From a virus, in IMG/VR virus record IMGVR_UViG_3300025151_000001, positions 28,241 through 92,240 of that record: DNA of 64,000 nucleotides; one strand, written 5' to 3'. The position numbers and the translations under genes were made by a program. The notes beneath the pieces were generated by a model that worked only from the letters and a program-made list of their open reading frames with translations, did no database searches and was not told the DNA's origin. Of this stretch, positions 37,221-62,349 are shown piece by piece. Position 1 is the stretch's first letter; each line of letters opens with the position of its first letter.

Positions 37221-38564
37221 TCATTGAAGGTTGGTAATCTTACCTTGACCCTTGAAGAAGGAACAGCCAACTTCACCGATGGTTCGGTAAAGAGCGCGGT
37301 TCCCGAGGGTTCCAACACCGAAGGGGTTTCCGTTGGAAATACCGTCCTCGAAGTATTGAGTAGGTTTCATAACAGATAGCCACATATGGTCGGTATCTAG
37401 GAAAAGCAAGTCACTAATCGAAGTTGAAGCGCCGGTAGTTGAAGGCATATCCTTGACCGGAATCAGAGGAATGTCGTAGTAGGTCGAAACACGGAAACCG
37501 ACTTCTTGGCCCTTTACACCACGAACGCCGTTCACGGTCGGAACAATTTCTTTTCGGTCCATGAAACGCTCTTGGCTCTGCAACAGGTCAGAAATGGCCT
37601 GAATGGTGTCGTAGCCCGTAAGGATAACCTTAGGAGAACCACCGGCGGTTCGCAGGTTGCGAAGAGTGTCGTTTAAGCGAGTTAAGGTCAAAGCCCGAAC
37701 ATCACCCGCAGCATAGCCACTACCGAAGTCAACTTGAGCATCTAAGAAAGATGCAGCGGTAAATCGCTCAGAACCGAAGATTTTACCCAAGTTGTTGGTA
37801 GCACTAGTTACATCGGTAGCAAGAACGTTATCGTCAATAGCAAGCAATTCATCACGGCTCGAAACAACCTTCATCAAAGATGTGTAGTTTCGCTCAATGT
37901 GGGGCATAGCGGAGGTTTCACCATAATGCTCCAAGGGCATAACGAGCATCTTGTTCTGAACTTCAGAGTGGTGCTTACCCATGTCTTCACGCATTTGAGC
38001 GCGAATGTCGCCAATACCGTCGTCAATCGCTGCCATTTCCATAGCCAATTCGGAGAAGTCGAATTGATGTGCGACTACTTTCGGAGAAACAAACAGTTGA
38101 GCGTAGGTTGGAGCAATTGGACCCAAACCATCAGCCGCAGTTGAAAGACCTGCATTCTCAGGAACGCCACCGATTGCGTCAGCACGGGGAGCATCTGCAC
38201 CGAGTAAAGCAGCATTCAAGGTTCCTGAGGTAGCAAGACCGAATGTATCACCACTACCACCGGCAGGGCGAGACTTCAGGATTCTCCAACCGGAGGAAGT
38301 GTATGGGCGCTTTGAAATCATCGAAAGAGCGTTGCATTCGCGGTTTAGCATAGACCAAACCTTTTGACCGTAAATTACGTTATAGAGGGAAGATAGGTCA
38401 CTTGCTGCCGTTGTTCCAGAACCGACACCTAAAGCAGTATCGTGTCCGGTGTGAAGACCGGCAACTGCGCCTGCTTGCTTCAGTAACGAATTACCTGCGG
38501 CAAAGTTTCCAAGTCCGTATGTTTGTGCTTCTAAATCTGCAATTGTGTTAATATAGCCACTCAT
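37221..38564 (-). CDS. HK97-fold major capsid protein
   Basis: 447 aa. Features: a helical and Gly-rich N-terminal arm, a central E-loop region and a long spine-helix segment (IRAQMREDMGKHHSEVQNKM), then P-domain and A-domain strands ending SFFKGQGKITNLQ. It follows the prohead protease-scaffold gene and precedes the decoration protein, the standard HK97 order. GAGGTGATTTAAC lies before the ATG. It forms the capsid shell. Similar in type to capsid proteins of tailed archaeal viruses. Confidence 0.85.
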   Translation of the reverse strand: MSGYINTIADLEAQTYGLGNFAAGNSLLKQAGAVAGLHTGHDTALGVGSGTTAASDLSSLYNVIYGQKVWSMLNRECNALSMISKRPYTSSGWRILKSRPAGGSGDTFGLATSGTLNAALLGADAPRADAIGGVPENAGLSTAADGLGPIAPTYAQLFVSPKVVAHQFDFSELAMEMAAIDDGIGDIRAQMREDMGKHHSEVQNKMLVMPLEHYGETSAMPHIERNYTSLMKVVSSRDELLAIDDNVLATDVTSATNNLGKIFGSERFTAASFLDAQVDFGSGYAAGDVRALTLTRLNDTLRNLRTAGGSPKVILTGYDTIQAISDLLQSQERFMDRKEIVPTVNGVRGVKGQEVGFRVSTYYDIPLIPVKDMPSTTGASTSISDLLFLDTDHMWLSVMKPTQYFEDGISNGNPFGVGTLGNRALYRTIGEVGCSFFKGQGKITNLQ

Positions 38565-38575
38565 GTTAAATCACC

Positions 38576-39781
38576 TCAAAGGTTTCCTCCGGTAAGACGG
38601 TGAATATCGGACCAATCCATCTTGGCGATATCGTCTAAGGTTGGAATGTTTGCAACTGCTTCTTCTTGAGCCTTTGCGATAACTTCACGTTCTGAGGTCA
38701 GAGACTTGCGAAGTTCAGTAAATTCGTTCTTAAGAGAAGCGATTTCGCTAGCAGCATCATAGTTCTGCTTTGCGATAAGATTCTCACGGGACGAAACTTC
38801 GGACTCAAAGCGAGCCGAAAAAGACTTCTGAAGGTTGTCGTAAGCGAGTTTTTCTAACTGCTCTTGACGGAAAGCCTCGTAAGCCTTTTCGATGTTTCCA
38901 ACGGAAAGGTCAAGGGTTTCTAACTCTTGGTTGTTAAATGCCTTAACAACGGGAAGGTCGGAAGCCTTTGGTTTTCCGTTTTCAATTACTACATGGTCCG
39001 CAGGTTCTCCAATTTCGACACCTGCGCCATCAAGAGTAGAAACAACAGCCTTTGCTTCCGAATCGTCCATGTATTCCATAGACTCTTCTTGGTCATCCAT
39101 CATTTCTTCGGATTCTCCGCCATAGTCACCACGTTCCATTTCGTCATCCATCATTTCTTCTTCTTCCTTTCGGAGCGAATTCACTTCTTTGAGAAGTGTA
39201 TCTAACTCTTCTAGTGCTTTTTCTAGTTTTTCGGTCATTTTCTCACCTGTTTTTTCTTGTTTTAAAATGTCAAACTTTGCTTCCGGGTTAATTCCTTTTT
39301 CACAAATCGTGACTTCATGCAGTTCTAACTTTGAAATTTCGTTATATTGTCCTAATTCAGAATTTGATTTCTTGACTTTCTGTAATGCTTGTCCACCAAT
39401 ACTAAAAGAACGGAGAGAACCTTTTCTAATTCCTCTGTTAATCTCCTTGGCTTTTTCGATATCATCGCGTAGTTTGATAACAACAAAGAATCCTACATCA
39501 TCAACTTCTGTTTTCCAGAGTCTTCCTGTTTTATCTCGGTAAGAGTCCACTACTTCTCCGACTTGAACATTTGAATGGTTGGTCATTACATTCCTAAATG
39601 ACTTTTGTTCCATGAATTTCTTAACTGCTTCGTTAAGTGCTTTGAGGGTAATCAAATCATTTTGCTTATCAACGATTTCAATGCTTGCATAACCACCAAT
39701 CATTAAGTCGTCGTTGCTTTTGAGAATCGTGAAATCTCCATCATCACCATTGGACTTCAGGAGGGTTCGCATTCCTCTCAT
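38576..39781 (-). CDS. prohead protease fused to scaffold protein
   Basis: 401 aa. Residues 1-170 form an XkdF/S78-like protease: H69 in TNHSNVQVGE and the nucleophile Ser in GSLRSFSIGG (122-130), with a matching domain end LHEVTICEKGINPEAKF. The remainder is a coiled-coil, acidic scaffold (EEEEMMDDEMERGD and onward). It ends KMDWSDIHRLTGGNL, a W-containing peptide like those tagging many other proteins here. The protease trims the scaffold and capsid arm during maturation, by family knowledge. Confidence 0.83.
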   Translation of the reverse strand: MRGMRTLLKSNGDDGDFTILKSNDDLMIGGYASIEIVDKQNDLITLKALNEAVKKFMEQKSFRNVMTNHSNVQVGEVVDSYRDKTGRLWKTEVDDVGFFVVIKLRDDIEKAKEINRGIRKGSLRSFSIGGQALQKVKKSNSELGQYNEISKLELHEVTICEKGINPEAKFDILKQEKTGEKMTEKLEKALEELDTLLKEVNSLRKEEEEMMDDEMERGDYGGESEEMMDDQEESMEYMDDSEAKAVVSTLDGAGVEIGEPADHVVIENGKPKASDLPVVKAFNNQELETLDLSVGNIEKAYEAFRQEQLEKLAYDNLQKSFSARFESEVSSRENLIAKQNYDAASEIASLKNEFTELRKSLTSEREVIAKAQEEAVANIPTLDDIAKMDWSDIHRLTGGNL

Positions 39782-39818: not shown

Positions 39819-42317
39819 TCAGGACTCAGGAATGGTCAAAGAATTATACCTGTCTTTGTAAATGTTCCATAAACCTTCATCTCCTTCTTTATCAGCCGGA
39901 GTTTGTTTATAGCCTGTCCACGCTAGCCACATTTTTTCATCCTTTACAGGGATAACTCTAAGGTGCAGTTTAGTTTCAAACTTATTACCCTTTAAGAAAT
40001 ATTCATGATATCCTTCCCTTTGGACACCTAATCGAATATCTCCTGCATCAATCAAGTCTTCCCTATCTTTAGTTTTAGAAACTTGAGCAGGGAATTTACC
40101 TGCTTTTCCGAACAACTCAAAAATTGCATCTTTTTCCGGTAGTTCAATATACCAAACTAAGTTTTCATCACCGAGTTGAATGCTAAAATCTAAGTTACCA
40201 TCTTTTCGAAGATAAATCTTAAACAAACCTTCTCTATATTCTTCGGGAGTTTTATATTCAGACTTGATTAATTTATCTGTCTCAGAAAACAATTTCTTTT
40301 CGGACATATCATAACTGATACCGTCCCTTTCTTCAGCCCAAGTCATTAACTTACGCTCTTTACTTTCTAGAATATCTTCATATTCTTCTGATTTCTTTTT
40401 CTTCAAGAAGTTATGCAATTCTCTAACTGTCTTTGGGCCTTGTTCTTTTAAGAAATTGATAATAGATACAGTAAGTTTTGCTTGCTTTGTTTTCATAATT
40501 TCCTCGGCTTGAGCCTTCCACATATCTAAATCTGCAATAGCATTCTTGGACATAAGGTTAGATTCTTCAAAACCATAGATAGTAAAACCATCATAATCTG
40601 ATTTAATGATTAATGTGGCCTCACCATGAATAAAGTCAGTAACTTTGATTCCTTTTTCTAAAGCACTAACATCATAATTTAATGATTTCTTAGTATCTTG
40701 AGATAACATATCTAAGGTGACAATTTTATCAGGTGCTTCTACTTCTGGGATTTCAATGACCTTTGCTGAGAAAACTGTGTATCTATCCCCGGCAGGCTTT
40801 ACTTCATCAACTTTCACACGAATAATGTCGCCTACCTTAGCAGAAATTTTGGTGTTAAGGGCCTTGCCTACGTCCATGTAGGTCTTGCCTTCAATCTCCC
40901 TGAAGTGCTTACCTTCGCCTTCTGTTGGTCCTGCGCCGAGCGTATATGAATACAGATTGCTTTTAGTCTTCTTAACATCGAGAACAATAAGGTCCAAGTC
41001 AACAAACTTCTTCCACTTAATCCATTTTGGATTCTTTCTTGTTCCAACATAATAAGTTGAGGTGGTGTCTTTAATGACCACACCTTCAGATGTAGGCATC
41101 TCCATAATTTCCTTCGAATAAGATTCAACATCTTTAATATTGTCGGCCATTCTAGTGTCTTTCTTGGATGGGAAAGCAACCTCTGTTGAAGAGCGAGAAG
41201 AGTAATTGTTGAAAAGAATAGTAATTCTATCCTCTAGCGGTTCTTCGATTAGCGACCTGTTCTCATGTCGCATAATATCGAAAACGTGCGCTCTTAGTGT
41301 AGCATTTGGGTATTTGCCTTTAAACACATGAGCAATTGTGTCTGCTCTATGAAGTGCTTCATCCTCATCAAATAAAATGAGTTCAGCATCAAGAATACAG
41401 TCTCCGTATTGTTTCTGCTTCATTTCTTTTACTTGGTCGGGACACTTATCAGTAATATCCTTTTCATTATAAGAATAAATTTTAACCTTATCATCAATCT
41501 TATGAATTTGGATTCTCATACCATCATATTTTTCTTGGATGACCCAATTACCACTAAAACCTTTTAATTCATTCAGGTCTTCAATATCGAAAATACGATA
41601 CATTGGTTTATTTGGAACTAAGAAATCAGACTGTGCTTTTTCCTCCACAGACTTCTGGGCCTTTTCAATTTCTTTAAGTTCATCTAACTCTTCTTCTTTG
41701 TGTTCAGAGAGATAAAACATTTCTAAAAGGTCAAGAGCAGAACTAACTTTGCTTTCGACCTTCTTTGAGTCTTTTCCATCACCGTATTGCTCGATGATGT
41801 ATAGGGCAACGTCGTCCACTTCTAGGTCAAGACCGGGGAAGCCGTCCGTAATTTCGTCCGGTTGCATATCTTTAATGCTCCAAACTTTCTCAGGAAGAGC
41901 ATCATTCCCGTCCCTTAGAGCATAGTGAAGAAACTTAGCCATAGTCTCTGGTTCTTCAAGTAATACTTCAAGAACTTTATCTTTGTATTTCTTTGTGAAA
42001 GGGTCATTGGCTTCATCAGCGGAAAGTCTCATATTTTTAATGCTCTCATAAATCTTAGATGCTTCATTGGTTTGTGGGTCCGAAGCATCTTTTGCTTCTA
42101 ATACATTTTCATTAAGGTAGTCTTCTAATACATTTGAAAGAGCATTAGTCTTAGAATAAATTTCCTTTAAGTCTTCAACTGCTTTTCGCCAACGACTACC
42201 GTATTCTTTTGGGTCTTCACGCGCAGAAAGATACGCTACGCGAGTCTTCTCGAATAAGCGAATAATCTCTTCAGAAGGAGATTCTTCTTTGTCGAGAAGA
42301 AGAGGCATATAAATCAT
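39819..42317 (-). CDS. lig: ATP-dependent DNA ligase with long N- and C-terminal extensions
   Basis: 832 aa. The nucleotidyltransferase core is complete: motif I EKYDGMR (adenylated K263), motif III around E312, motif IV EGVVIKD from 411, motif V KWIKWKK at 431-437, followed by an OB-fold. The first 230 residues are helical and charged. The last 300 hold a winged-helix-like part (VSIINFLKEQGPKTVRELHN) and a beta-rich domain that could resemble the phosphoesterase domains of LigD proteins. It lies in the head operon, apart from the other replication genes. The start overlaps the upstream stop (ATGA). Confidence 0.87.
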   Translation of the reverse strand: MIYMPLLLDKEESPSEEIIRLFEKTRVAYLSAREDPKEYGSRWRKAVEDLKEIYSKTNALSNVLEDYLNENVLEAKDASDPQTNEASKIYESIKNMRLSADEANDPFTKKYKDKVLEVLLEEPETMAKFLHYALRDGNDALPEKVWSIKDMQPDEITDGFPGLDLEVDDVALYIIEQYGDGKDSKKVESKVSSALDLLEMFYLSEHKEEELDELKEIEKAQKSVEEKAQSDFLVPNKPMYRIFDIEDLNELKGFSGNWVIQEKYDGMRIQIHKIDDKVKIYSYNEKDITDKCPDQVKEMKQKQYGDCILDAELILFDEDEALHRADTIAHVFKGKYPNATLRAHVFDIMRHENRSLIEEPLEDRITILFNNYSSRSSTEVAFPSKKDTRMADNIKDVESYSKEIMEMPTSEGVVIKDTTSTYYVGTRKNPKWIKWKKFVDLDLIVLDVKKTKSNLYSYTLGAGPTEGEGKHFREIEGKTYMDVGKALNTKISAKVGDIIRVKVDEVKPAGDRYTVFSAKVIEIPEVEAPDKIVTLDMLSQDTKKSLNYDVSALEKGIKVTDFIHGEATLIIKSDYDGFTIYGFEESNLMSKNAIADLDMWKAQAEEIMKTKQAKLTVSIINFLKEQGPKTVRELHNFLKKKKSEEYEDILESKERKLMTWAEERDGISYDMSEKKLFSETDKLIKSEYKTPEEYREGLFKIYLRKDGNLDFSIQLGDENLVWYIELPEKDAIFELFGKAGKFPAQVSKTKDREDLIDAGDIRLGVQREGYHEYFLKGNKFETKLHLRVIPVKDEKMWLAWTGYKQTPADKEGDEGLWNIYKDRYNSLTIPES

Positions 42318-42821: not shown

Positions 42822-43046
42822 TCACTCACCTGATAATTTCTTCACAACATCGTGAATTTCTGACCAATCCATACCAGAAACATCACCAACCCCTGAGGAT
42901 TTTTGAATGTTCATCGAAGGGGTAGGGCTATCAACAACAACATAACCTGACTTCATCAGAAGATTGTCGTTATTATAAACGGCTTTCTCTAGTTGTTCAA
43001 TCTTAGTCGTGAGTGCTTTTAAAATCTCTAATAAATCTTCGTTCAT
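42822..43046 (-). CDS. small coiled-coil protein with C-terminal W tag
   Basis: 74 aa. The N terminus is a coiled coil (LLEILKALTTKIEQLEKAV) and the C terminus is SGMDWSEIHDVVKKLSGE, closely matching the C-terminal end MDWSDIHRL of the protease-scaffold protein. AAGGAGG lies upstream. A small scaffold-like or cargo-binding protein is a reasonable guess. Confidence 0.65.
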   Translation of the reverse strand: MNEDLLEILKALTTKIEQLEKAVYNNDNLLMKSGYVVVDSPTPSMNIQKSSGVGDVSGMDWSEIHDVVKKLSGE

Positions 43047-43408
43047 AATTTTTCCTCCTTCTTTTTAGCGGGATAAACTAAATCTTCCAATTGGCGATAG
43101 AGTAACTCATACTCCTTCCGTAATTTGCTAGCCGTGGCGACAATATCAACGTTGCGCTCGTCCATAGACTTCATCTTCTTTGTGAGTTTTTTATCTGATT
43201 TGACGAGTTCCATTGTTTTTAAAAGGGTAATCAAATCGCCTAGTTTTGTGAAGTCTTGACCAAAAAATTCAGAAGGCTCTGCCGTTTGAAGAGTCTTCTT
43301 AAGTTTCTTTCTTTCCTTAGAATTAAGAGTATCTAAAAGTTTTTCAGGAGATTTTCTCTCTTCTTTTAGAATGAATTCTTTTCCGGTGTCATAGTAATCC
43401 CAAGTCAT
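43043..43408 (-). CDS. helical protein, start MTWDYY
   Basis: 121 aa, Lys and Glu rich, nearly all helical. The second ATG (43408) is chosen because GGAGGC abuts the first. The N terminus has MTW but not the full tag. Position between coiled-coil protein genes suggests an internal head protein. Unknown function. Confidence 0.55.
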   Translation of the reverse strand: MTWDYYDTGKEFILKEERKSPEKLLDTLNSKERKKLKKTLQTAEPSEFFGQDFTKLGDLITLLKTMELVKSDKKLTKKMKSMDERNVDIVATASKLRKEYELLYRQLEDLVYPAKKKEEKL

Positions 43409-43410
43409 AA

Positions 43411-45306
43411 TCATGCCTCCGGTCTTTTTGCGACTTCTTTTCTAATGAAGTCTAGAGTCTTTTCTAAAATTTTAATTTGTGTTTGAAGTTCTTCAGAAAT
43501 TTTCAATAAGAGTCTAGTATCTTCCACATCAAAGTCAGGGTCTTCAATTTTATCTTTAAGAAGTTCTTCTAGAAGTTCTTCCATCTTGTCCTCTTCTTTG
43601 AATTTTTCATCGGTTAGACTATCAACCACTTCAGAAACTTCTTCCTTTACCCTACTTAGTTGGGACTTTAAAGAATCTAAGAACTCAACAGTATATCCTT
43701 CGACAATTTCAGAAATTTCTTCAGTCATCCCTACTTTGAATTTTCTTCCTAATCCAGACAAGTCGTCAGATAATTTATCAATCAAATTAAAAATATCAGT
43801 CATTTTCATTTTTCGGTCTTCAACAATTTTATCTAATGTTGATTCATACTCTTCAACAACTTTAGCATATTGAGGGTCAGAAATTAAAAGATATCTAAGT
43901 TCATCATTTTGAGTAATGCTCTCGATTTCTCTATTCTTTTCTTTTAATTCTGATGAAGTAAAGGTATCTGGTCTAATATTTTCTCTTTGAAGATTTCTTT
44001 GGATTCTTTTTTTGTCTTCCTCAGAAAGTTCGGAACCTTCTTTACCCGCATATTTAATTTTAATTAGAATTTCAGATAATGCCTTACGCATTTCTTCTTT
44101 AACTTTCTCATATTCTTTACGCAATCTTTTGTCTGTGATTGGGTAAGAACCCGGATTAGATTCAGCAAGTGTCTTAATCTTAACAATAGAAGTTTGAAAC
44201 CTAGTGATGTTTCTAGAAATCCTTTTACTCCTCTCTCTTTCTTGGGCTAACCTTTGTTTTCCTCTTCCAGAAATTCCTTGAATATCAATCGGGATTTTAG
44301 TTTTTACACCGTAAGCCCTACTAGCAAATCTCGTTAATCTGAGAATAGCCTTTTCACTATCCTTTATTACAAATAAAATCTTTTTTATATTTTGAAAGTA
44401 TTCTTTATATCCTCTACTTTCTGGGGTAATTTCGTTTGGTCTTTTAACGAACCTTAGACCACCACTAGGGTCTAATGTGTAGTCAAAAATATCAGAGTTT
44501 TTATTTAATTGAGAATCATCGTTTTCCATTAGAATTTTAATTAACTCTAACTTCAGTAATGGTTGCCCCTCTAAGATTTTAATGAAAAGGTCTTGTTCTT
44601 CATCAGTTGATTGGTCATCAGAATCTAAGTTTTCAATTGACTTGGAAAGTTCCTCTGAAAGATTTAAAAGTTTTTCTGGAACTTCTTTAGCAATTTCTTC
44701 TGCTTCAAGTCTTTTAACTCCTCTTCGAGATGGTTGTTCAGAATAAAATGCAGCGAATTGCTCTCGAATATCTTTTAGAAGAGTGCTAGTGGTAATTCCC
44801 TTTGGAGAATCCGAGATTCCTTTTAAAATATTGACAAGTCTCGTTTCAGTCTCCTTAACTCTACCATACTTAGTTCTTAAAAAGTCCTTAAAGTCAGATG
44901 ATTTTTTAACCTCGTTTGACTCAAGAAGCCCTTCCAGATTTGGTTTTTTAACTTGTTCAGTAAGAGTATCAATCAATTTTCGCCTTTTCTCTTCTTCTCT
45001 TTTTTCCTTAGCAGTTTTCTTTTTCTTTTTGCCCTCTGGTTTAAGTGACCTAATTTGTTCAGCATCTGCTTCAGTATAAGTTCTTCTTTTTACGGGTGTT
45101 AGCCTATCATTCGGAAGGGGTCGTTTTTTATAAGAAGCATATACTTGTTCGCTAAATGCTCTTTGCTTTAAGAAACTATTTAATTCAGAAGCACTAGTAA
45201 ATTTTGTAATTTTTGAATAAAGTCTATCTCCAACTACAGTCTTAATTACATTTCCATGCGAGAGCATATCTGGCTCAACGTCTTCTTTAAGAAGGTTTTG
45301 CCACAT
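43411..45306 (-). CDS. large coiled-coil protein, tag-like start MWQNLLKE
   Basis: 631 aa, Lys/Glu/Leu-rich and almost wholly helical, with several long coiled-coil segments (around 95-130, 380-460 and 530-630). It opens with MWQNLLKEDVE, a near match to the tag shared by many small proteins here. A good RBS GAGGTGATTTTAA is present. It may be an internal or injected virion protein. No catalytic motif was found. Confidence 0.6.
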   Translation of the reverse strand: MWQNLLKEDVEPDMLSHGNVIKTVVGDRLYSKITKFTSASELNSFLKQRAFSEQVYASYKKRPLPNDRLTPVKRRTYTEADAEQIRSLKPEGKKKKKTAKEKREEEKRRKLIDTLTEQVKKPNLEGLLESNEVKKSSDFKDFLRTKYGRVKETETRLVNILKGISDSPKGITTSTLLKDIREQFAAFYSEQPSRRGVKRLEAEEIAKEVPEKLLNLSEELSKSIENLDSDDQSTDEEQDLFIKILEGQPLLKLELIKILMENDDSQLNKNSDIFDYTLDPSGGLRFVKRPNEITPESRGYKEYFQNIKKILFVIKDSEKAILRLTRFASRAYGVKTKIPIDIQGISGRGKQRLAQERERSKRISRNITRFQTSIVKIKTLAESNPGSYPITDKRLRKEYEKVKEEMRKALSEILIKIKYAGKEGSELSEEDKKRIQRNLQRENIRPDTFTSSELKEKNREIESITQNDELRYLLISDPQYAKVVEEYESTLDKIVEDRKMKMTDIFNLIDKLSDDLSGLGRKFKVGMTEEISEIVEGYTVEFLDSLKSQLSRVKEEVSEVVDSLTDEKFKEEDKMEELLEELLKDKIEDPDFDVEDTRLLLKISEELQTQIKILEKTLDFIRKEVAKRPEA

Positions 45307-47496: not shown

Positions 47497-47668
47497 GCTT
47501 AACGCCTCCGTCCGTCGCTTGTTCGTCATCATTCAAGAGGGTGTCGGCATCCATTGGCTGAGGCATACCTGCTTTTACCCAACAATCATAACAAAAGCCA
47601 AAAGGAGCCTCTGTTGAACCAAAATATTCAGGGTCATAACAACAACTATAATATTTCCAATCAGGCAT
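47489..47668 (-). CDS. small Cys-rich protein, 59 aa
   Basis: Starts MPDWKYYSCCYDPEYFG and carries a later CYDCW pair; the Cys residues could bind a metal. The ATG at 47668 follows GAGGGC; an upstream start at 47698 would overlap the previous gene more. It overlaps portal start by eight bases, so it is coupled with portal synthesis. Confidence 0.55.
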   Translation of the reverse strand: MPDWKYYSCCYDPEYFGSTEAPFGFCYDCWVKAGMPQPMDADTLLNDDEQATDGGVKHG

Positions 47669-49253
47669 AAGCAGCCCTCTTTTGTAGTTTATTTTCAACT
47701 GTATTTTCTTCTGACTTTTTAAATCCTTTTAACTGATTTTTATACTTTTTTAGAAGTTTAGAAATGATTGAGGTAGCACTTTCAAAATTAAGCCTATCGT
47801 TAATTTTAGATTGGAATTCCTTAACTGCTTCATCTGGTAAATTTCTCAGTTTAGGATAACTTCTTTCAAGGCCTGCTCTATCAAATTTAATGATGGTTCC
47901 AATTCCTTCTAATTCATCCATTGCAGACATTTTGCAGTTATCTCTATACTTTTGAATATCGTCTTTATAGATGCCTTCTTTTTCAAAATCAAAACCAACG
48001 TGGTCTTTGTGGTTTTCCCATTTCATAAGTTTGAAAATTTCACCACATCGTTGCTTATACCAATCTTGTTTCTTAAATGATTTTTTCATTCGGACTAATT
48101 CTAGAAGTAATTCTGCATTTCCTTTCTTTAATCGGAAGTGAGGAAGACATTTGGTGAGAAGATTATGCACATCATCCTGTGAATAAAAGTTTAGGCGATT
48201 AACAGGACGGGTATCTTGTGGTGACTTTTGGTCAAGATGAAGACGACCGAAACCAATGCTTTTATGCATTTCTTCCATGAAAGCCTTCCCTCTTTCGCCC
48301 GTTGCAACTAAACCGACCCTAGGGTTAAAACTCCTATCCATTGTAATGTAACCATCTGAATCAATAAATGCAGCAGTATAAGCCCAAATATTTTTCTTAA
48401 TCTCTGAAGAGAATTTATAATAAGAACCACTTGTGTTAACGATATCTAATTTTTTAACTAGTTGAGAAATAGATGCAGGACTTGAAGATTTATATAAAAT
48501 AGTAGGCATTCTATCATGAATCTGCTTTGCTCCAATACCGGGTTCATCACAAACTGATTTCAAGATAAAATCTTCAATCCTCTCTTTCTTCGACTTAGTA
48601 ATAGATTGATTTGAAATTTTAGCAAGGGAGTTTCGAAATTGCTTTTTAGCAGAATTCATTTCTTTTTGGAGAATAGCAAATTCTTTTCCTAAATTTACTT
48701 CTCTTTGATTTAGGTCAGCCTCCCAATATTTACACAAAGAATCGACAACTTCTCTTCGAATATCTTTATTTTTCATCTTATGGAGTTTATGTAAATCTTT
48801 TTCATTAAATCTCATTTTAAGAAGAGTAGATTTGTATGGCCTAACCCAATGAATAAAATTAATTGACTTATCAATATGGTCAGAATAAGCATCAATAAGA
48901 GTATCAATAGATTTAGACATACGTTCTCTATCATCGCCCTTTAACTTTCGCCTAGCCTTACGCAATTTTCTAATCAAGTCTGGAACAGTTTCTTCTTTAA
49001 CAATATACTCCTTTGGAAAAGAATCTAAGTGCTTTCTTGCTTGGGAAGCATTAATTTTTAAATCATTGGATAGTTTGGTAATTTCTTCTAGTTCTGAAAA
49101 AACTGCTCCCGTATCAAGTGATGCTCTAATTTCAGTAAAGTCTACACCTAAGGCTCTTTCTGCCTCATCTTTAACTTGTTCTTCTTCTTCATCTAATTCT
49201 GCTAGACGCTCCATTCGGCTCGCCGCTTCTCTATATTCTTCAGGAGTAGGCAC
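47661..49253 (-). CDS. coiled-coil protein with LAGLIDADG endonuclease domain
   Basis: 530 aa with GTG start. Residues 1-240 are helical and charged. About 240-300 looks like a winged-helix part (IGAKQIHDRMPTILY). From about 300 comes YTAAFIDSDGYITM, a LAGLIDADG active-site helix with Asp residues, followed by a typical alpha-beta half-domain (GFGRLHLDQKS, VNRLNFYSQDDVHNLL). One such motif is seen, so it would act as a dimer. It sits between large terminase and portal as a free-standing gene, either a homing endonuclease or a domesticated packaging protein. Confidence 0.7.
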   Translation of the reverse strand: MPTPEEYREAASRMERLAELDEEEEQVKDEAERALGVDFTEIRASLDTGAVFSELEEITKLSNDLKINASQARKHLDSFPKEYIVKEETVPDLIRKLRKARRKLKGDDRERMSKSIDTLIDAYSDHIDKSINFIHWVRPYKSTLLKMRFNEKDLHKLHKMKNKDIRREVVDSLCKYWEADLNQREVNLGKEFAILQKEMNSAKKQFRNSLAKISNQSITKSKKERIEDFILKSVCDEPGIGAKQIHDRMPTILYKSSSPASISQLVKKLDIVNTSGSYYKFSSEIKKNIWAYTAAFIDSDGYITMDRSFNPRVGLVATGERGKAFMEEMHKSIGFGRLHLDQKSPQDTRPVNRLNFYSQDDVHNLLTKCLPHFRLKKGNAELLLELVRMKKSFKKQDWYKQRCGEIFKLMKWENHKDHVGFDFEKEGIYKDDIQKYRDNCKMSAMDELEGIGTIIKFDRAGLERSYPKLRNLPDEAVKEFQSKINDRLNFESATSIISKLLKKYKNQLKGFKKSEENTVENKLQKRAAYA

Positions 49254-49262
49254 ATAATCACC

Positions 49263-50690
49263 TCAAAAGTTCAGGCCCATGAAGCCGCGCTGCGGTCGGG
49301 AAGTGGTTGGGTTCCCACCGAACAGGTCCAAGTCGTCAAGCAGAATAAACGCTTCTGAAGCCTGATAGGTGGCTGCATTTGCTAAGGCGAGACTCATAAC
49401 CATGTCGTCATGTGCGCCGATTCCCTCAAACTTTCCATTGTCTGTAATTGCGAACATAGACATTTCTTCTACTAATGTTGAAGTAACTCTCCTACTTTCT
49501 TCATTGCCATAAGGGAACTGAATTTTCTTATTCTCAAGAGACATTTGAAGATTGAGAATAATCTCCTGCTTCTTCCGACGAGTCGTGTTGAAATCATGAA
49601 CGTTAATGTCCGCGACTTGGCGTAACTCTTGTGTGAAAGACTTTGCGAATGTATTTGTTTCAAACAAAACAACTTCAGGACGGAACATTGAGTTAATCAG
49701 TTTAACTTTCTGAATGTTGTCTCGGAATTGAACGTTCTTTGCTCGGTCAATATAGACCAAACGTTTGTTCTCATCCTCATCCATTTCGAGAACCGTGATT
49801 ACGTTATAGTCACCATCAGTTGAAATAGCAGGGTCCACACCAACGAAATATTTGTGACCTTCTCTTCGCATTGGCTTTAGAACGAGGTCTTTATTCTTAG
49901 CAGCATCTAAGTATTCTGGATTGAACAAACTCATACCTGTTGAAATAGGAACACACATATATTCTCTTGTGAACTTAAGAGTTCCAATTTCAGCCTTACG
50001 AGACATAAGAGCATCGTAGTTCCAACGCTCGGGCCATAGGGGTTCATTTAATGAATCTAAACAGGGATAAGTTCTAACCGTGTAGGCTTCGTTTTCTGCT
50101 AACTGTTGGTAAATATCTGTATAACTGAAAGGTGTTCCAATAACGCGAAGTGATGCGGTGTGGTGAAGTGTAGGAATCATGTCTCCATAAAACCAATCAG
50201 TAACCTTTTGAATAGCGGTCATGCTAAATTCTTTCAAAGGGTCGTCAATTACAATCTCTTGTGGGTGAAGACCACGAATCTGAGAACCGACAGAACGCTC
50301 AAGGATTTGGTTTCCATTCGTAAGAGTAATGTTTCCAATCGCCCAACCGCGTGCAGGTTTATATTTCTTGAGATATGGATGGGCGAATAATTTATCAATG
50401 TCTCTCATGTGAACCATTGTCTGTTTTTGGTTAGATGAAATATAAAGCATTTGATAAGGTGGCTCTTGGAAAACTAAATTCCAAACGACCCAACTGTGCA
50501 TAAATACAGACTTACCGTGGTCACGGGAACAGATGATAACAGTTCTTTGAGTGCTATTCATCAGTTCGTGCCATTCTTGAATATAAGATGGAAAGTCAAA
50601 ACCTAAAACTTGCTGAAAGAAATATGGAAAAGAAGTGGCGGACAACTTCATGTCCATTGCTTCTTGCAAGTCTAAAGGTGCGGACTCCAT
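49263..50690 (-). CDS. terL: terminase large subunit
   Basis: 475 aa from the ATG at 50690, which has GGAGG five bases upstream. The ATPase domain has SRDHGKS (55-61) and Walker B EIVIDD (145-150). The nuclease domain has D286 (FVGVDPAIS), E344 (VLFETNT) and D428-D429 (AHDDM), as in T4 gp17-type packaging motors. It pumps DNA into the prohead and cuts the concatemer. It is directly upstream of the LAGLIDADG gene and portal, as expected. Confidence 0.93.
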   Translation of the reverse strand: MESAPLDLQEAMDMKLSATSFPYFFQQVLGFDFPSYIQEWHELMNSTQRTVIICSRDHGKSVFMHSWVVWNLVFQEPPYQMLYISSNQKQTMVHMRDIDKLFAHPYLKKYKPARGWAIGNITLTNGNQILERSVGSQIRGLHPQEIVIDDPLKEFSMTAIQKVTDWFYGDMIPTLHHTASLRVIGTPFSYTDIYQQLAENEAYTVRTYPCLDSLNEPLWPERWNYDALMSRKAEIGTLKFTREYMCVPISTGMSLFNPEYLDAAKNKDLVLKPMRREGHKYFVGVDPAISTDGDYNVITVLEMDEDENKRLVYIDRAKNVQFRDNIQKVKLINSMFRPEVVLFETNTFAKSFTQELRQVADINVHDFNTTRRKKQEIILNLQMSLENKKIQFPYGNEESRRVTSTLVEEMSMFAITDNGKFEGIGAHDDMVMSLALANAATYQASEAFILLDDLDLFGGNPTTSRPQRGFMGLNF

Positions 50691-51205
50691 CATTTCCTCC
50701 CCCTTAAAACATAAAACCACTTTGAAATTGGTAAGCCTTTGACTCCCCATGTAGCGCCTTTAGGGTGATTACTGTAATAATTTCTAAAACCTTCAACGGT
50801 TGAATTATTTCCATAACTTCCCAACTGTTCATCAGTAGGGGCCATCGTCCATCCTTTACCTTCATTAATTCGAATCCAATCCTTATTAGACATAGTGCTA
50901 CTACTAAATCCAGCAAAATAAGGTTTTGGTAATGTATTATCTGCTTTTTCTGTTAATTTTTTATAAAATCCTTTTCCTTGATATTTTGGAGAAACGAAAG
51001 TTCCACCTCTTAAAGTAATGCCTTCTTTTTTAGAATACCCAGCAGCACCAACAATGTTGTCATCATCAAATAAAACTAAATAGTTGGTGATAGGATAAAA
51101 AGAATCAAGAGGAGAATTTTTCGAACGATTGCTCGGTAGGGTTCCTCCTTCTGTTTTTTTCCAAAGAGAAACTAATTCCTCTTTAGGCATATCTTTGAAT
51201 TCCAT
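50690..51205 (-). CDS. GNAT-type N-acetyltransferase
   Basis: 171 aa. Motif A with GTFVSPKYQGKGFYKKL holds the QxxGxG acetyl-CoA loop, after the YLVLFDDDNIVGAAGY strands typical of GNAT folds. Position between small tagged proteins and terminase is common for viral GNAT proteins, which may acetylate host proteins, toxins or small molecules. The substrate is unknown. It overlaps the terminase start (TGATG). Confidence 0.75.
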   Translation of the reverse strand: MEFKDMPKEELVSLWKKTEGGTLPSNRSKNSPLDSFYPITNYLVLFDDDNIVGAAGYSKKEGITLRGGTFVSPKYQGKGFYKKLTEKADNTLPKPYFAGFSSSTMSNKDWIRINEGKGWTMAPTDEQLGSYGNNSTVEGFRNYYSNHPKGATWGVKGLPISKWFYVLRGRK

Positions 51206-51454: not shown

Positions 51455-51742
51455 TCACCTTCTTGATTTATTACCGTGACATTTCCATTTCTTACGACTT
51501 AGATTATTTGGACTATTGGGGTCACTTCTCCAATTGCCCTTGATTTTATTAGACCTAGCACAGTAAGCGTCCCCCTTAGAAGTTCCGGGTCTGATTCTAT
51601 CTTTTCCATCTTTGGCTTTTCCTGCTTGACCATACCTAACAGTTTTTTTTCTTCCGGTTTTTTTATTCGTGACTACTTTCTTAAAACGTCTTTTAAATTT
51701 TAAGACGTCCTCCTTTTCTTTGAGAATATCTTTCCAATCCAT
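51455..51742 (-). CDS. tagged small basic protein (MDWKDILK)
   Basis: 95 aa, strongly basic. The N-terminal tag is MDWKDILKEK. The C-terminal half, with RIRPGTSKGDAYCARS and NSPNNLSRKKWKC, is a recurring small domain in virus genomes. AGGAG lies before the start. It may bind DNA in the head. The tag links it to the targeting hypothesis. Confidence 0.68.
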   Translation of the reverse strand: MDWKDILKEKEDVLKFKRRFKKVVTNKKTGRKKTVRYGQAGKAKDGKDRIRPGTSKGDAYCARSNKIKGNWRSDPNSPNNLSRKKWKCHGNKSRR

Positions 51743-51743: not shown

Positions 51744-52190
51744 TCAATTTCTCCTATTTTTTGGACGGATATACTCATCTAAGAATGAAGCAGGATTTTC
51801 ATCTGAAAATAAATCTGAAACAGAACGTGCATCATCTTGTTTCCCTTCATTTTTGCATTTTTCGAAGTCTTCTAATATTTTTTTAGCAGACGGAACATAC
51901 CAACTTGGTAATTTACTTTCGCCTCTTGGTGGGTTTTTTGCACTTTCGATTCTTTCTTTAAGTAATTGAATAATATAATCGCATGTTTCTTCTACATCAT
52001 ATTCTAAAATATTTTCCGCATTTTGTCTCATATATTCCGCATTTGGTTTTAGATAAGGAAATTCATCCGACATACTTTCATAGTAATCTGCTAATTTATG
52101 GTCAAGCATAGCAAAATCAGATACTAAATTGGTGCAACAAAGTTTTTTTGCATCCACTTTAACATTTTTAAGAATAGTCTTCCAATTCAT
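51744..52190 (-). CDS. tagged protein (MNWKTILK)
   Basis: 148 aa with a W tag at the start, then a helical body with two adjacent Cys (KLCCTN) and one further on (ETCDY). ATG 52190 follows AAGGTGATTGAA. No family recognised. Close neighbour of other tagged genes in a tight run. Confidence 0.6.
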   Translation of the reverse strand: MNWKTILKNVKVDAKKLCCTNLVSDFAMLDHKLADYYESMSDEFPYLKPNAEYMRQNAENILEYDVEETCDYIIQLLKERIESAKNPPRGESKLPSWYVPSAKKILEDFEKCKNEGKQDDARSVSDLFSDENPASFLDEYIRPKNRRN

Positions 52191-52191: not shown

Positions 52192-52581
52192 TCAATCACC
52201 TTTCATTTGGTTTTTCTTGGACTTTTCATCATCCTTAATAGGACCACCTGCGGCCCAAGTATAACAAGTCCTATCCTTATGACATTTAAAGTCGTGCATC
52301 CAACAATATCCCAATTTGCCCTCTAATGGCATACATTCTTTCATTCTTGGGCTAACGTCAAAAGCAACACAGTTTGAACAATTGGTTTTCTTAGCAGCCT
52401 CAACATCGGTATTCCAATGTTCTGCAATTTTTTCCCAATAGTCACCGGGTTTTTCAATAGTCAAGGGACCATACTGAATATGCTTTGCTTTGATAGCAGC
52501 ATCTCTGTTCTTAGTGTTTAACTTCAAGTCTTTGGTTGCCCGTGGGCAAGCCAACTGTTTTAGAATGACTTCCCAACTCAT
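52192..52581 (-). CDS. tagged Cys-rich protein (MSWEVILK)
   Basis: 129 aa. After the tag MSWEVILKQ it holds a cluster of Cys and His (NCSNCVAFDVSPRMKEC, then GYCWMHDFKCHKDRTC) that should bind zinc or another metal, and a GGPI motif. Similar Cys patterns occur in small proteins of marine phages, of unknown role. The start at 52581 is preferred over an upstream ATG because the tag aligns there. Confidence 0.68.
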   Translation of the reverse strand: MSWEVILKQLACPRATKDLKLNTKNRDAAIKAKHIQYGPLTIEKPGDYWEKIAEHWNTDVEAAKKTNCSNCVAFDVSPRMKECMPLEGKLGYCWMHDFKCHKDRTCYTWAAGGPIKDDEKSKKNQMKGD

Positions 52582-52586: not shown

Positions 52587-52973
52587 TCATTCCTTAAATG
52601 CGCTAACTAATCTGCTCAGATTATCTTTCTGTTTCTTCTCTTTCCTCTTAGAAGGAAGGTTTTCCTCAACAAGCCGAGCATATTCAGCAATTTTCTCTTT
52701 GGTTACATAACCAAAAACATTATCGTTTTCCTTAATGCCAATGTCTTGAGGGTGTTTTAATCCGGGATAGGCTAACATAACTTCATATTGACGGTAATCC
52801 ATAGGGTTATCGAGGTATTCTCTAGGAGTGCTATATGCTCCCTTTCCTGCAAGGATGCTAAATTTCACTCCTTCTCCGAATTCGTAGATAACGTTCCAAT
52901 TACCGTTTCTATCTACTTTGAAATCTAAAGAATCAAAGTTAAACTTTTGTTTTAAAATATTTTTCCAACTCAT
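52587..52973 (-). CDS. tagged protein (MSWKNILK)
   Basis: 128 aa. Tag MSWKNILKQ, then a beta-rich part (NWNVIYEFGEGVKFSILAG) and a helical Lys-rich tail. GAGGTGATTATA precedes the ATG at 52973. The function is not known. Confidence 0.62.
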   Translation of the reverse strand: MSWKNILKQKFNFDSLDFKVDRNGNWNVIYEFGEGVKFSILAGKGAYSTPREYLDNPMDYRQYEVMLAYPGLKHPQDIGIKENDNVFGYVTKEKIAEYARLVEENLPSKRKEKKQKDNLSRLVSAFKE

Positions 52974-58540: not shown

Positions 58541-59545
58541 TCAAACCCTCAACACTTCATCCCATTTCAACACTACTTCTTCTTGAGTAGTCGGATTTAC
58601 GAACTTCTCAGGAACCCTTGTGTTTCTAGCGGCAGCACGTCGTAATAGTTCTCGCGCGTTCTTTGGAGTAAGTTCAAAGAAAACCTCATCAACTTCTCCC
58701 GTCAAACTAAAGATTCTCTTTACGTCTTCTGAAGTTTTTGGATTTAGTTTGAGAGGTGTTGTCGCAAGGTATTGTGCTAACTTCTTTGAACTCAATTCCT
58801 CCTCAGTATAAAGTGAAGCGGTCTTTAACGCCCTGTTAATGTATTGTCCTAGTTGGTCAAGTTTAACAAGTTTGTTAATCAAAGTAAGGTTGTTAATCAC
58901 TAAGTCAACTTCATTCTCTTCAATATCTTCAATGGCTTTCTCCAAAACAAAGTAAAGGCCGGTAAGTTTCAGACTCCCGCTACCATCACCAAAAAGTGCC
59001 TGATGATAAGGCGGCTGCTGATTGCCGTTTGCCCTTCGGGAATAGAAGCCTTCCTTCGCAGCCTTTCCGGTCTTCGCCTCAAAATACGGAGTCCGGTAGT
59101 GACCATAAACTTTTACTTTCTTACCCTTTGGGACGACCTTACCTCGGACACGTCTAAAAGATTGGGGTTCTCGGAACAGAGTGTTCTTTGGGTTCAATGT
59201 CGAAGAAGGAGCCTTAAATTCATCTAGTGCGTCAAGTAACGCTTCTAGCATTTCTAACTCTTCGTCATCTTGGTAGCCTTTTTCTAGAATCTTACCAACT
59301 TCTTCTAATACTTTAAAAGCACCGTCTTCTCCAGAATTGCTAGAGTTTGCACGGCGAACCTGAGAATTAACGTGCTGAGAAATTTGCACATAAAGGTTGC
59401 CCTTGTCTTCCTTTGTTCCAAGAACTTCACCCGAGAACGATTCGCACTTTTTCTTCCATTTCTTGAAAGACTTACCAAAGCCGCGATTTACGACTTCGAC
59501 AAATACACCGGGAACGATTTCAATCCTCTCTTTCTTCCTTACCAC
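58541..59545 (-). CDS. hypothetical protein with C-terminal W peptide
   Basis: 334 aa with GTG start after GGAGGAAGAAGC. A globular centre has HYRTPYFEAKTGKAAKEGFY; the rest is helical. The last residues are VVLKWDEVLRV, which recall the shared tag placed at the C terminus. It borders the small terminase-like gene. The function is unknown. Confidence 0.55.
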   Translation of the reverse strand: MVRKKERIEIVPGVFVEVVNRGFGKSFKKWKKKCESFSGEVLGTKEDKGNLYVQISQHVNSQVRRANSSNSGEDGAFKVLEEVGKILEKGYQDDEELEMLEALLDALDEFKAPSSTLNPKNTLFREPQSFRRVRGKVVPKGKKVKVYGHYRTPYFEAKTGKAAKEGFYSRRANGNQQPPYHQALFGDGSGSLKLTGLYFVLEKAIEDIEENEVDLVINNLTLINKLVKLDQLGQYINRALKTASLYTEEELSSKKLAQYLATTPLKLNPKTSEDVKRIFSLTGEVDEVFFELTPKNARELLRRAAARNTRVPEKFVNPTTQEEVVLKWDEVLRV

Positions 59546-60200
59546 GCTTCTTCCTCCGTGAATATCTAATGTTGTGAATACCGGGTGTGGCCGAAGTCAC
59601 CGCCCCTGCCGCCTTCTGTGTGTCCTCGTTATTAGACTCATCGTCCAAGACAGACCAAGAGAAACGAATTATTTCCATTGGGTTATTCCTATAAACAATT
59701 TTCGCGTTATAGTCTCCGGTCCCACGAACCACACCAATTTGTGATTTTGTCCCGTCCGCATTTGACCTACCATAATCTTTATGACTTGATTTTAAATAAA
59801 ATCCACTCATAAACGACCAATCTCGCCAAACGAAATCGTTTTGTAAAGCATATTTTATAATCATCCTTAACTGACCTTCATCCTTTAAATCTTCTAATAA
59901 TTCACAGTAAAGGTCATCTTCCAAAAAATCTCTTTTTTGAAGCCATAACCAACCATTTATCATATCTCCTCCTTTTGGCCCCGGAACATCAAAACCAATG
60001 GTGAGTCTATTTGGGTCATCAAAAATTGTTGTCGTATGCTTCCACATTTTTGATAAATCAATAAGATATTCTTTGAGTTTTTCGAAACAATCCTTGTCTT
60101 CTTTGACTCGCTTAAATGGTTTCTGAATATCAATTGGAGCCATACCCGTTTGGGTTTTACCCTGAAGTTTTTGGTCCTTAAGGATATCAAACCAAGTCAA
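59520..60200 (-). CDS. tagged paralogue 1 (MTWFDILK)
   Basis: 226 aa from a TTG at 60200, which overlaps the upstream stop (TTGA). The N-terminal module is MTWFDILKDQ followed by GMAPIDIQKPFKRVKED, as in the next three genes upstream. A globular part with DLYCELLEDLKDEG follows and a basic tail (RYSRRKKRGKEERED). One of four tandem paralogues. The function is unknown. Confidence 0.68.
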   Translation of the reverse strand: MTWFDILKDQKLQGKTQTGMAPIDIQKPFKRVKEDKDCFEKLKEYLIDLSKMWKHTTTIFDDPNRLTIGFDVPGPKGGDMINGWLWLQKRDFLEDDLYCELLEDLKDEGQLRMIIKYALQNDFVWRDWSFMSGFYLKSSHKDYGRSNADGTKSQIGVVRGTGDYNAKIVYRNNPMEIIRFSWSVLDDESNNEDTQKAAGAVTSATPGIHNIRYSRRKKRGKEERED

Positions 60201-60775
60201 AGGAACCCACTCCAATTATCAAATTCCTTGTGAAGTTTGTAGGTATTTTCATAAAATCTTTCTTCATCTTCAAAATAATGGGCAACTAAAATAAGTGCCG
60301 TATCTTCTGTATCATAAGAAGCACCTTTAGGTTGAATCTCTATTTGATAGATAGTTCCCTTTTTAAAACAAGTAATTAAATAATTACCAACTTCCTCGAC
60401 AATATCTCCAGAAGGGGGCCTTAAATTCTTAAACATTTCAATTGCTTTGCAGTAAATTTCATCGGGAACATCCCCCTTTGGTGGAATTTTAACTGCGGTA
60501 TGAATGAAAAAATTATCTTCAGTATTTGGTTCGGTATAATAAAAATTCATTACGTTTGCTCCATGCCACCTGCTACCAGAATTATCAATAACTTCAGGTT
60601 TTGTTTCTCTACTTTTGGGGAAAGACGCTTGCACCTTTTTAGCAATTTCTACGAATTTTTCATAACAACCTTTATCCTTCACCCTTTTGAAAGGCTTTTG
60701 AATATCAATTGGGGCCATGCCTTGCCTTTGACTTTGCACAGTCTTGGCTTCTTTGAGGATTTCGAACCAATTCAT
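60197..60775 (-). CDS. tagged paralogue 2 (MNWFEILK)
   Basis: 192 aa. It shares the tag MNWFEILKEAK, the second motif GMAPIDIQKPFKRVKD, a Cys-containing helix, and PDEIYCKAIEMFKN with its neighbours. The middle holds beta strands (NFFIHTAVKIPP). It overlaps both neighbours by 4 bases. The rapid divergence of C-terminal parts compared with the N-terminal module suggests selection on the module. Confidence 0.7.
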   Translation of the reverse strand: MNWFEILKEAKTVQSQRQGMAPIDIQKPFKRVKDKGCYEKFVEIAKKVQASFPKSRETKPEVIDNSGSRWHGANVMNFYYTEPNTEDNFFIHTAVKIPPKGDVPDEIYCKAIEMFKNLRPPSGDIVEEVGNYLITCFKKGTIYQIEIQPKGASYDTEDTALILVAHYFEDEERFYENTYKLHKEFDNWSGFL

Positions 60776-61224
60776 TTCATTTCATCCTCCCTGAATTCGG
60801 ACCCGATTACAGCAACATTATCTCTTCCTGCATCTTTTTCTCCAACGTATGCATAAAAATGATTATATCTATAATCAGAGGAAAATCTATAACTTAAGTC
60901 TGAATCTTCAAACCTATGGTCTACATTTTTATCATGATTTGCTATTTTTTCTTCAATCCATTTTTTAGCCTTGCAATAATACTCATCGGGATGAGATTCA
61001 ACGATTATTGCAAAATCTTCATGAGAAGAGGCTTCCCAAATTAGCATCTTCTTACTTTCGAATTTAGGAGACTCTAAGCGTGAATCAAAAAATGCTTTGA
61101 GTTTCTCAAAACAACTATCATCTTCTTTTACCCTTTTAAAAGGTTTTTGAATATCAATAGGAGCCATCCCTGCACGGGAAGACTGAACAGAAGTCTGCTC
61201 CTTCAGGATATCAAACCAATTCAT
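60772..61224 (-). CDS. tagged paralogue 3 (MNWFDILK)
   Basis: 150 aa. Tag MNWFDILKEQ, then GMAPIDIQKPFKRVKED, a CFEKLKAFFD helix, and a shorter globular domain with HPDEYYCKAKKWIEE. Helical with a mixed beta end (YRYNHFYAYVGEKD). Part of the four-gene array; it overlaps both neighbours. Confidence 0.7.
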   Translation of the reverse strand: MNWFDILKEQTSVQSSRAGMAPIDIQKPFKRVKEDDSCFEKLKAFFDSRLESPKFESKKMLIWEASSHEDFAIIVESHPDEYYCKAKKWIEEKIANHDKNVDHRFEDSDLSYRFSSDYRYNHFYAYVGEKDAGRDNVAVIGSEFREDEMK

Positions 61225-61739
61225 TTCAATCCCTCTGGTTCATAAACATTATATTCAAGAAGTAGATTTTTTCTTTTACCGTATGTAATAATATAGTTAA
61301 CTCGGTCTAATTCTTCTATTGCTTGGGAGATAATTTCTAAATCTCGATGAGAAGGCATACTAGATAAAGGTGCGGACATTAAGTTCCCCTTAGTCCAATC
61401 AATTTTTAATGAATGTGAAATAGAAACCTTAAGTGCTTCTAAAACTAAACAATACATTTCATCAGGTATCTCGGGATTAAATCCTATAAACAAATATTCT
61501 AATGGATTTTCATTAGGTTCAACGAAATAATTTTTATGGTATTGGGCTAAAAAGCCTCCATTTTTGCGAGGGTCTCTCGTCTCAAATTCGAACCTACTTT
61601 CAACAAAAGCAATTAGTTTGTTAAAGCAATCATCTTCTTCCTTTACCCTCTTAAAAGGCTTTTGAATATCAATTGGTTTCATACCCTGTCTTTGACTCTG
61701 AACTAACTCAGAGTTTTTAAGGATATCAAACCAAGTCAT
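61221..61739 (-). CDS. tagged paralogue 4 (MTWFDILK)
   Basis: 172 aa. Tag MTWFDILKNS, then QGMKPIDIQKPFKRVKEE, then CFNKLIAFVESR and PDEMYCLVLEALKVS. First of the four-gene array in transcription order. It overlaps the 207-aa gene upstream by 14 bases, and that gene starts with the related MKPFDIRE. The function is unknown. Confidence 0.7.
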   Translation of the reverse strand: MTWFDILKNSELVQSQRQGMKPIDIQKPFKRVKEEDDCFNKLIAFVESRFEFETRDPRKNGGFLAQYHKNYFVEPNENPLEYLFIGFNPEIPDEMYCLVLEALKVSISHSLKIDWTKGNLMSAPLSSMPSHRDLEIISQAIEELDRVNYIITYGKRKNLLLEYNVYEPEGLK

Positions 61740-62349
61740 TTCTATCCCTTTTCAAAAGTCGAAACCATTCAGACTTGTTCATCTCTTGAAAATCAGAACT
61801 AAATTCAGGTTCACCAACATCAACAGTTTCAGCATCGTCGTAAGTTCTCTCGGAAAGATTCCTAGACTCATTGTGGACAATTAAAGCATTTACAGTCATA
61901 AACATCCCTAAGAAATTCATGACCTCACTAGTGAAAGACTCAACTAATGCATCGTCAATGTCTTGAATCTCAGTTCCAACAACTTTTCTCAAAGATGCAA
62001 CAAAAGTGTTATCGTCAAGAATATCATTAAGCATAGTAAAGATAGCCTTTTCGACTTTTTCTTCATCAACAATCCCGTCGAATAGGGGCATATCAATAAT
62101 ATCTTCAGGGTCCATATCTGGGTCAATCTCTGGCTTTTCGCCCGGACTCAGAACATCCTCGGGGTCCAAAGTTAAAGAATTTCCAAGCACTTCGCTCATA
62201 ACTAAAGCAAATGCTTCGGAACCAAGAGTATAATTTCTCTCGGCTTGTCTTGCCAAATTGAGCATACCTTGACCATAGTTCTCTTTAACCCAAGCGGTAA
62301 GAGCATCCATTTCATCTGGAATATTTTCTCGGATATCGAAAGGTTTCAT
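61726..62349 (-). CDS. acidic protein with C-terminal W peptide, 207 aa
   Basis: Acidic helical protein (residues 60-100 rich in Asp/Glu/Pro: EIDPDMDPEDIIDMPLFD). It starts MKPFDIREN, like the second motif of the paralogue family, and ends KSEWFRLLKRDRNDLV, so the tag appears at its C terminus. It overlaps the next gene by 4 bases at each side. A scaffold- or cargo-linked role is possible. Confidence 0.6.
   Translation of the reverse strand: MKPFDIRENIPDEMDALTAWVKENYGQGMLNLARQAERNYTLGSEAFALVMSEVLGNSLTLDPEDVLSPGEKPEIDPDMDPEDIIDMPLFDGIVDEEKVEKAIFTMLNDILDDNTFVASLRKVVGTEIQDIDDALVESFTSEVMNFLGMFMTVNALIVHNESRNLSERTYDDAETVDVGEPEFSSDFQEMNKSEWFRLLKRDRNDLV

Follow-up and report, generated by a model that had tools for sequence, protein, structure and literature searches.

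A terminal tryptophan peptide partly shared by scaffold and candidate cargo proteins in tailed viruses that probably infect marine archaea

In the viral locus considered here, a gene encoding a prohead protease fused to a scaffold ends with a short peptide centred on a tryptophan, and many other open reading frames (ORFs) begin with a peptide that resembles it. The question that this raises is whether the scaffold and a set of protein cargoes could be addressed to the assembling head by the same signal. In our reading, proteins dock through a terminal W-x-[DE]-I peptide, which would load cargo in the manner of the capsid-targeting sequence (CTS) of phage T4 and would also be used by the scaffold; this reading, which is built by analogy, has in our estimate a probability of about 0.5.

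The window, meaning the whole stretch of 64,000 bases that was analysed, corresponds to bases 28241-92240 of a viral record of 92,240 bases. Its minus strand encodes a terminase, a portal, an S78 protease and a major capsid protein (MCP) of the SU10/HK97 type, as identified with Pfam and PHROGs, and the MCP gene begins 11 bases after the protease-scaffold gene (Table 1). The nearest named relatives of the protease and the MCP belong to the haloarchaeal tailed viruses HVTV-1 and HCTV-1 (25-31% identity). On the plus strand, several genes look like RFC, PCNA and PolB when their translations are read by eye, which fits with an archaeal virus; the PolB-like one (6012-9167, plus strand) seems, again by eye, to be broken into two ORFs with small ORFs in between. 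The family probably consists of tailed viruses with marine archaeal hosts, and we infer that it corresponds to the 'magroviruses' of marine group II, which are related to haloviruses and have a portal, a terminase, an MCP and a prohead serine protease (PMC10160649). The head cluster also contains a gene for an ATP-dependent DNA ligase of 832 amino acids (39819-42317, minus strand), which is devoid of a W tag and lies between the mini-scaffold and the protease. ORFs of similar size occupy the equivalent position in the relatives L232 and L234, which, together with L233, come from a 'Maricaulis' MAG (NZMJ) and are viral contigs of this group that were probably mis-binned.

Table 1. Coordinates of the features discussed, numbered from the first base of the window.
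Feature	Position	Strand	Basis
MCP, SU10/HK97 type, candidate receptor	37221..38564	-	Pfam, PHROGs
Prohead protease (S78) fused to coiled-coil scaffold, 401 aa	38576..39781	-	Pfam, PHROGs, alignment of relatives
C-terminal docking-like tail MDWSDIHRLTGGNL, residues 388-401	38579..38620	-	conserved W; low-confidence model
FDILK, end of protease domain, candidate cleavage site	39260..39274	-	invariant lysine 174
FTILK, second candidate cleavage site	39719-39733	-	invariant lysine 21
Mini-scaffold, 74-aa coiled coil, scaffold-like tail MDWSEIHDVVKKLSGE at 42825-42872	42822..43046	-	hhalign, profile search
123-aa protein, split tag MTWDYYDTGKEFILK; clade-B orthologues MTWENILRK	43043..43414	-	sequence
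631-aa protein, N-tag MWQNLLKED, between portal and scaffold genes	43411..45306	-	tagged counterparts in relatives
GNAT-type acetyltransferase ending KWFYVLRGRK	50690..51205	-	Pfam Acetyltransf; homologue ends
Six consecutive N-tagged ORFs	51455-51742, 51744-52190, 52192-52581, 52587-52973, 52979-53158, 53160-53531	-	tag pattern
334-aa protein, C-terminal W peptide KWDEVLRV	58541..59545	-	homologue ends
Four paralogous N-tagged ORFs in tandem, MxWF[DE]ILK...GM[AK]PIDIQKPFKRVK	59520..61739	-	sequence
207-aa protein ending SEWFRLLKRDRNDLV	61726..62349	-	sequence
Four N-tagged ORFs	62346-62633, 62643-62996, 63265-63549, 63566-63850	-	tag pattern

The protease-scaffold gene, directly upstream of that of the MCP, encodes a Peptidase_S78 domain (Pfam E 5e-10; PHROG head maturation protease E 2.5e-16) followed by a coiled-coil scaffold. 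The initial annotation made this protein end with KMDWSDIHRL; the peptide is indeed there, but the true end comes five residues later (AKMDWSDIHRL-TGGNL), so that the C-terminus reads ...AKMDWSDIHRLTGGNL and the tryptophan is residue 390 of 401. In the AlphaFold2 model, which is of low confidence throughout, a long helix (294-377) is followed by a linker and then by a separate short helix (390-397). This model (pTM 0.20) and that of the MCP (pTM 0.51) are both too weak for placing a binding site; Foldseek returned only weak matches to HK97-type capsids (best E 6e-3), and a sequence search of the PDB gave no meaningful relative. The tails themselves lie well outside what chance would give. Across 18 aligned relatives (down to 56% identity), W390 never changes, behind a linker that varies in both length and sequence. 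Among the 193 distinct scaffolds found overall, all of the 187 that are complete carry W.[DENQST][ILV] within their last 26 residues, the six others being all cut by contig ends, and the consensus of the tail is M-[DS]-W-[SGN]-[DE]-I-[HN]-x-[MLF]-[VA]. One contig of this collection, IMGVR_UViG_3300021958_000021 (184,733 bases, from which the loci L022 and L054 both come), carries two scaffold genes that differ from each other and are separated by about 90 kb, and probably represents two joined viruses or a double-length assembly.

A second protein carries the same kind of tail. The GMDWSEIHDV that had been proposed to end the 74-aa protein was confirmed, with seven more residues after it (GMDWSEIHDV-VKKLSGE, W61). 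This tail aligns with the scaffold profile over 19 columns (hhalign E 7e-6), the scaffold profile recovers orthologues of the small protein in other genomes (E 3e-6 to 8e-4), and 104 distinct tails of this kind were collected, all of which makes it look like a mini-scaffold. We also scanned 2.9 million viral contigs (IMG/VR) with a degenerate DNA pattern for M[DE]Wx[DE]IH[KE]M, irrespective of the position of the peptide within the protein. There were at least 104 in-frame matches. Among the matches listed, 48 are scaffold-sized and 56 are small proteins; the peptide is found in the scaffold and mini-scaffold kinds only, and every time it lies 11-16 residues before the C-terminus. Since a position-blind scan leads to two kinds of proteins and always to their C-terminal end, this is a terminal peptide common to two coiled-coil proteins.

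The N-terminal tags are far more widespread. The pattern M-x(0-2)-W-x-x-[IV]-[LI]-K opens about 300 protein families whose bodies are unrelated; it is thus a conserved short N-terminal peptide on unrelated, presumably internal, proteins. Each of seven near-complete records holds 8-19 ORFs opening with M-x(0-3)-W-x-x-[ILV]-[IL]-K, where codon-shuffled genomes average 0.0-0.15, so that a chance origin was rejected. The genome studied here has 15 clear N-tagged proteins (17 matches, two of which are implausible ORFs) where about 0.1 would be expected after shuffling, and additionally the split form in the 123-aa protein. The tags also follow the strand of the head genes: when loci were fetched by similarity to the scaffold, and not via the tags, 71 of the 110 families with a tryptophan start on the scaffold's strand had the tag motif, for 0 of 25 on the opposite strand. 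A search of the literature, mostly outside subscription papers, gave no report of such a tag in archaeal viruses. Pfam gave four isolated hits, and no functional theme, for 93 tagged families that were sampled. The possibility that the tags are an artefact of start codons or of shared DNA was rejected as well: the synonymous codons for their I and L vary, C-terminal forms exist, and a reversed control pattern gave no match.

Several particularities of the tagged genes deserve mention. In the four tandem paralogues, GM[AK]PIDIQKPFKRVK directly follows the tag, and a similar tandem array (NIQISSQRTSSKDYV) is present in the relative G023. For the tagged ORF of 59 amino acids at 52979-53158 (minus strand), Pfam gives a weak match of the dockerin/EF-hand kind (E 2e-4), which falls just short of the cut-off. 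The ORF at 47661-49253 (minus strand) has a C-terminal part that resembles a family N-tagged in relatives (MTWKDILKLDIKGLRQTYPALRGLPDE), fused to a sequence that is homing-endonuclease-like by eye. A few long proteins of G023, G027 and G012 also contain tag motifs of full strength in their interior (for instance EETWTDILKIDGG, ENSWQSILKVGG and QASWFSILKKK), which may reflect fusions of cargo genes or mark sites of internal release.

How closely does the scaffold tail resemble these tags? The two were proposed to share a core W-x-D/E-I, and this is correct for the W (position 0), the D/E (+2) and the I (+3), but at +4 the tail has H or N in place of the L or I of the tag, and the lysine at +5 is common to both in one clade only. 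On the side of the tags, residue +2 is D, N or E in 58% of the cases, a position that was not used in their selection. Once the N-terminal tags are excluded, a profile of the tag ranks the scaffold tail about 7th-8th of roughly 29,800 sequence windows in two relatives, and the mini-scaffold tail second in one genome; the scaffold tail of the present genome is not among its best nine. The similarity is therefore real but partial, of moderate strength and "not overwhelming". In clade B, the scaffold tails shift from IHK to IHN or IN and the mini-scaffold tails to IN or IG while the tags stay ILK, hence the absence of any diagnostic covariation of tail and tag across clades. With IH or IN in the tail and ILK in the tag, a shared site is plausible rather than established.

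Among 30 long contigs sampled via the tag pattern, 19 carry the scaffold, and the W peptide was present in each of the eight tails inspected; the complete scaffolds of this sample are also counted in the 187 of 187 given above. As for the 11 without a scaffold, G024, G038 and G039 are fragments with the terminase near the contig end, and G042 has four tags but neither terminase nor scaffold could be detected. The remaining ones were set aside as unrelated phages, in which the match is either a holin-like W..IFK or a single one due to chance. In the whole records of more distant archaeal viruses (HVTV-1, HCTV-1, vir519 and vir335), there are no tags, and no such tail. A tagged relative with a scaffold devoid of the W peptide would count against a common route; such relatives were searched for and none was found.

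The W peptide is not restricted to the C-termini of scaffolds. W-x-x-[ILV]-[LI]-[KR] occurs 25 times within the last eight positions of proteins and 3 and 2 times in the next two bins, for an expectation of about 5 that we estimated from the internal rate. A reversed control motif also has some C-terminal excess (10), so these counts are inflated by related sequences; counted by family, there are 10 cases. Versions of the motif with F or Y have no clear C-terminal excess. The best example is the 334-aa protein, in which nearly all of 26 homologues, most of them 23-35% identical, end in a W peptide (KKSWEEILKC, KKSWHEYLWG and LKWDEVLRV for instance). GNAT-type acetyltransferases, the one at 50690-51205 among them, end in a similar manner, but some of the C-terminal matches, such as that in a strand of the GNAT-type protein, may simply belong to the protein fold. 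These C-terminal forms make the motif independent of the start codon, which rules out an explanation by translation start, and they bridge the N-terminal tags and the scaffold tail.

The lysine of the tags points to a second possible function. The K:R ratio is 295:7 in the N-terminal tag families and 6:4 in the C-terminal forms (Fisher p 1.6e-4). A comparable motif lies in the N-arm of the MCP, N-x-L-L-K at residues 25-29 (LLK at 38478-38486), in which N25, L28 and K29 are invariant in an alignment of 50 sequences; all 74 of the non-redundant MCP sequences have [LIVM]-L-K, which starts between residues 23 and 28 after a spacer of variable length. HK97 cleaves its capsid protein after lysine, and the MCP motif is a candidate maturation cleavage site. 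The protease domain itself lies between F-x-I-[LI]-K and FDILK, the lysines of which (21 and 174) are invariant among 18 relatives, although FDILK and FTILK could be mere strands of the protease fold. Taken together, the lysine bias of the N-terminal tags, the N-x-LLK of the MCP and the lysines bordering the protease suggest that [IL]LK is the protease site and W-x-x-I the docking part. The ILK of the N-terminal tags may thus double as a prohead-protease site, though the tag lysine may instead serve binding. The initial idea that the protease could trim the tags is in this way favoured, indirectly, by the lysine bias and by the MCP motif.

In the docking reading, the scaffold and the mini-scaffold would display the W peptide on a flexible linker beyond their coiled coil, and this peptide would grip the inner face of the assembling capsid, as in the 80alpha/SaPI1 pair. 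Hundreds of unrelated proteins from the structural-gene strand bear a version of it, mostly as an N-terminal M-x-W-x-x-I-L-K and sometimes at the C-terminus, and would thereby reach the interior of the prohead as cargo, in the way of T4 proteins that bear the CTS. Their I-L-K would probably be the prohead-protease site, the tags being trimmed upon destruction of the scaffold, a step which we put forward with more reserve. The initial claim that cargo and scaffold share one loading route gains from the common core, the conservation of the tail, the second tailed protein and the co-occurrence of tails and tags, and loses from the fact that tail and tag are not identical; what remains suggests that a single mechanism may bring both of them into the head. 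The most complete form of the proposal, a two-ended and virus-wide cargo address serving the scaffold, the mini-scaffold and hundreds of interchangeable cargoes, with ILK as the protease site that releases the cargo upon destruction of the scaffold, is one that we regard as less likely than not.

There might also be two separate motifs, one in the tail for capsid binding and one in the N-terminal tags for another signal (for example, one that recruits proteins to a hub of the virus or of the host, such as a complex for replication or takeover), W-x-[DE]-I being then a convergence of two short amphipathic helices. The H/N versus L/I difference at +4, the variable K of clade-B scaffold tails next to tags that keep ILK, the moderate profile score of the tail and the lack of covariation all speak for it. 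We nevertheless find it unlikely, considering that W, D/E at +2 and I at +3 coincide, that C-terminal W peptides of non-scaffold proteins (KKSWxExLW) bridge tail and tag, that the tags sit on the structural-gene strand beside the head genes, and that tail and tags are both missing from the outgroups. The tag could otherwise contact the coiled coil of the scaffold or mini-scaffold, the scaffold tail being a self-association element. This has the merit of agreeing with T4, in which proteins are directed by the CTS to the core formed by the scaffold (PMC3012670, PMC9958956), but a linker-borne tail beyond the coiled coil, on two proteins, fits better with the capsid binding of 80alpha SP and CpmB (PMC5644958), which makes contact with the scaffold core improbable. 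Finally, the invariant LLK of the MCP N-arm and the K bias of the N-terminal tags could be taken to mean that the tag is purely a feature of proteolysis or of translation start, that is, a cleavage propeptide with no docking role or a shared 5' sequence. Such a feature would explain neither the conservation of W and I besides LK, nor the varying I/L codons, nor the W peptides at C-termini, and we hold it for very improbable.

If the docking reading is right, a simple sequence rule would read the protein payload of widespread uncultured marine archaeal viruses straight from their genomes, and hundreds of so far unknown ORFs would become predicted cargo of the virion. Cargo delivery by archaeal tailed viruses would then be open to direct testing. 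In the more complete, two-ended form of the proposal, marine archaea would receive from the virion a large and fast-changing set of proteins, acetyltransferase included. The docking reading would also be a case of scaffold and cargo using one docking peptide, and it would provide a tag ready for loading proteins into an HK97-fold capsid, usable at either end of a protein.

It remains to place this system among those already known. The closest in genes are HVTV-1 and HCTV-1 (Druskaviridae), which have a homologous S78 protease (31% identity) with a long acidic scaffold-like extension, followed by a homologous MCP (25-30%). They differ in having no matching W tail and no tags; they do have KSWEQED or KSWEEED roughly 25 residues before the protease ends. 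We did not count this segment as a relic of the tail, as it has no I at +3 and is that far from the end. Encapsulins also direct cargo into an HK97-fold shell through a short terminal peptide (PMC8346489, PMC11866011), but these are cellular compartments with few dedicated cargoes, defined by a non-viral shell free of portal, terminase and packaging genes, whereas the present genome is that of a virus with portal, terminase and protease.

The scaffold SP of 80alpha and the CpmB of SaPI1 bind one capsid site through a common C-terminal RIIK helix-hook (PMC5644958). As here, these are two internal, coiled-coil or dimeric proteins, one a scaffold and one small, with one C-terminal peptide, which in our case is that of the scaffold and mini-scaffold. 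The RIIK motif is absent, the tails having W-x-[DE]-I-[HN] instead, so the tail is not a member of the 80alpha/SaPI type and at most its functional analogue. Furthermore, the two tailed proteins come here from a single virus, a related peptide is found on many other proteins, and capsid binding is a prediction. In T4, diverse internal proteins have in common only the N-terminal CTS; they are located within the scaffold core, and the prohead protease gp21 removes small peptides from their N-termini (PMC3012670, PMC9958956). The CTS and the tags are alike in being short conserved N-terminal peptides on otherwise diverse proteins. The CTS has a different sequence, however, and is reported not to be conserved in other core proteins, while the motif described here is on hundreds of families, is also C-terminal and has a core in common with the scaffold tail, the packaging and cleavage of the tagged proteins being predicted. 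The system would thus function like the T4 CTS and the SaPI/80alpha tails and be a sequence member of neither, and its new part would be the use of one core for scaffold and cargo, at either protein end and across hundreds of families.
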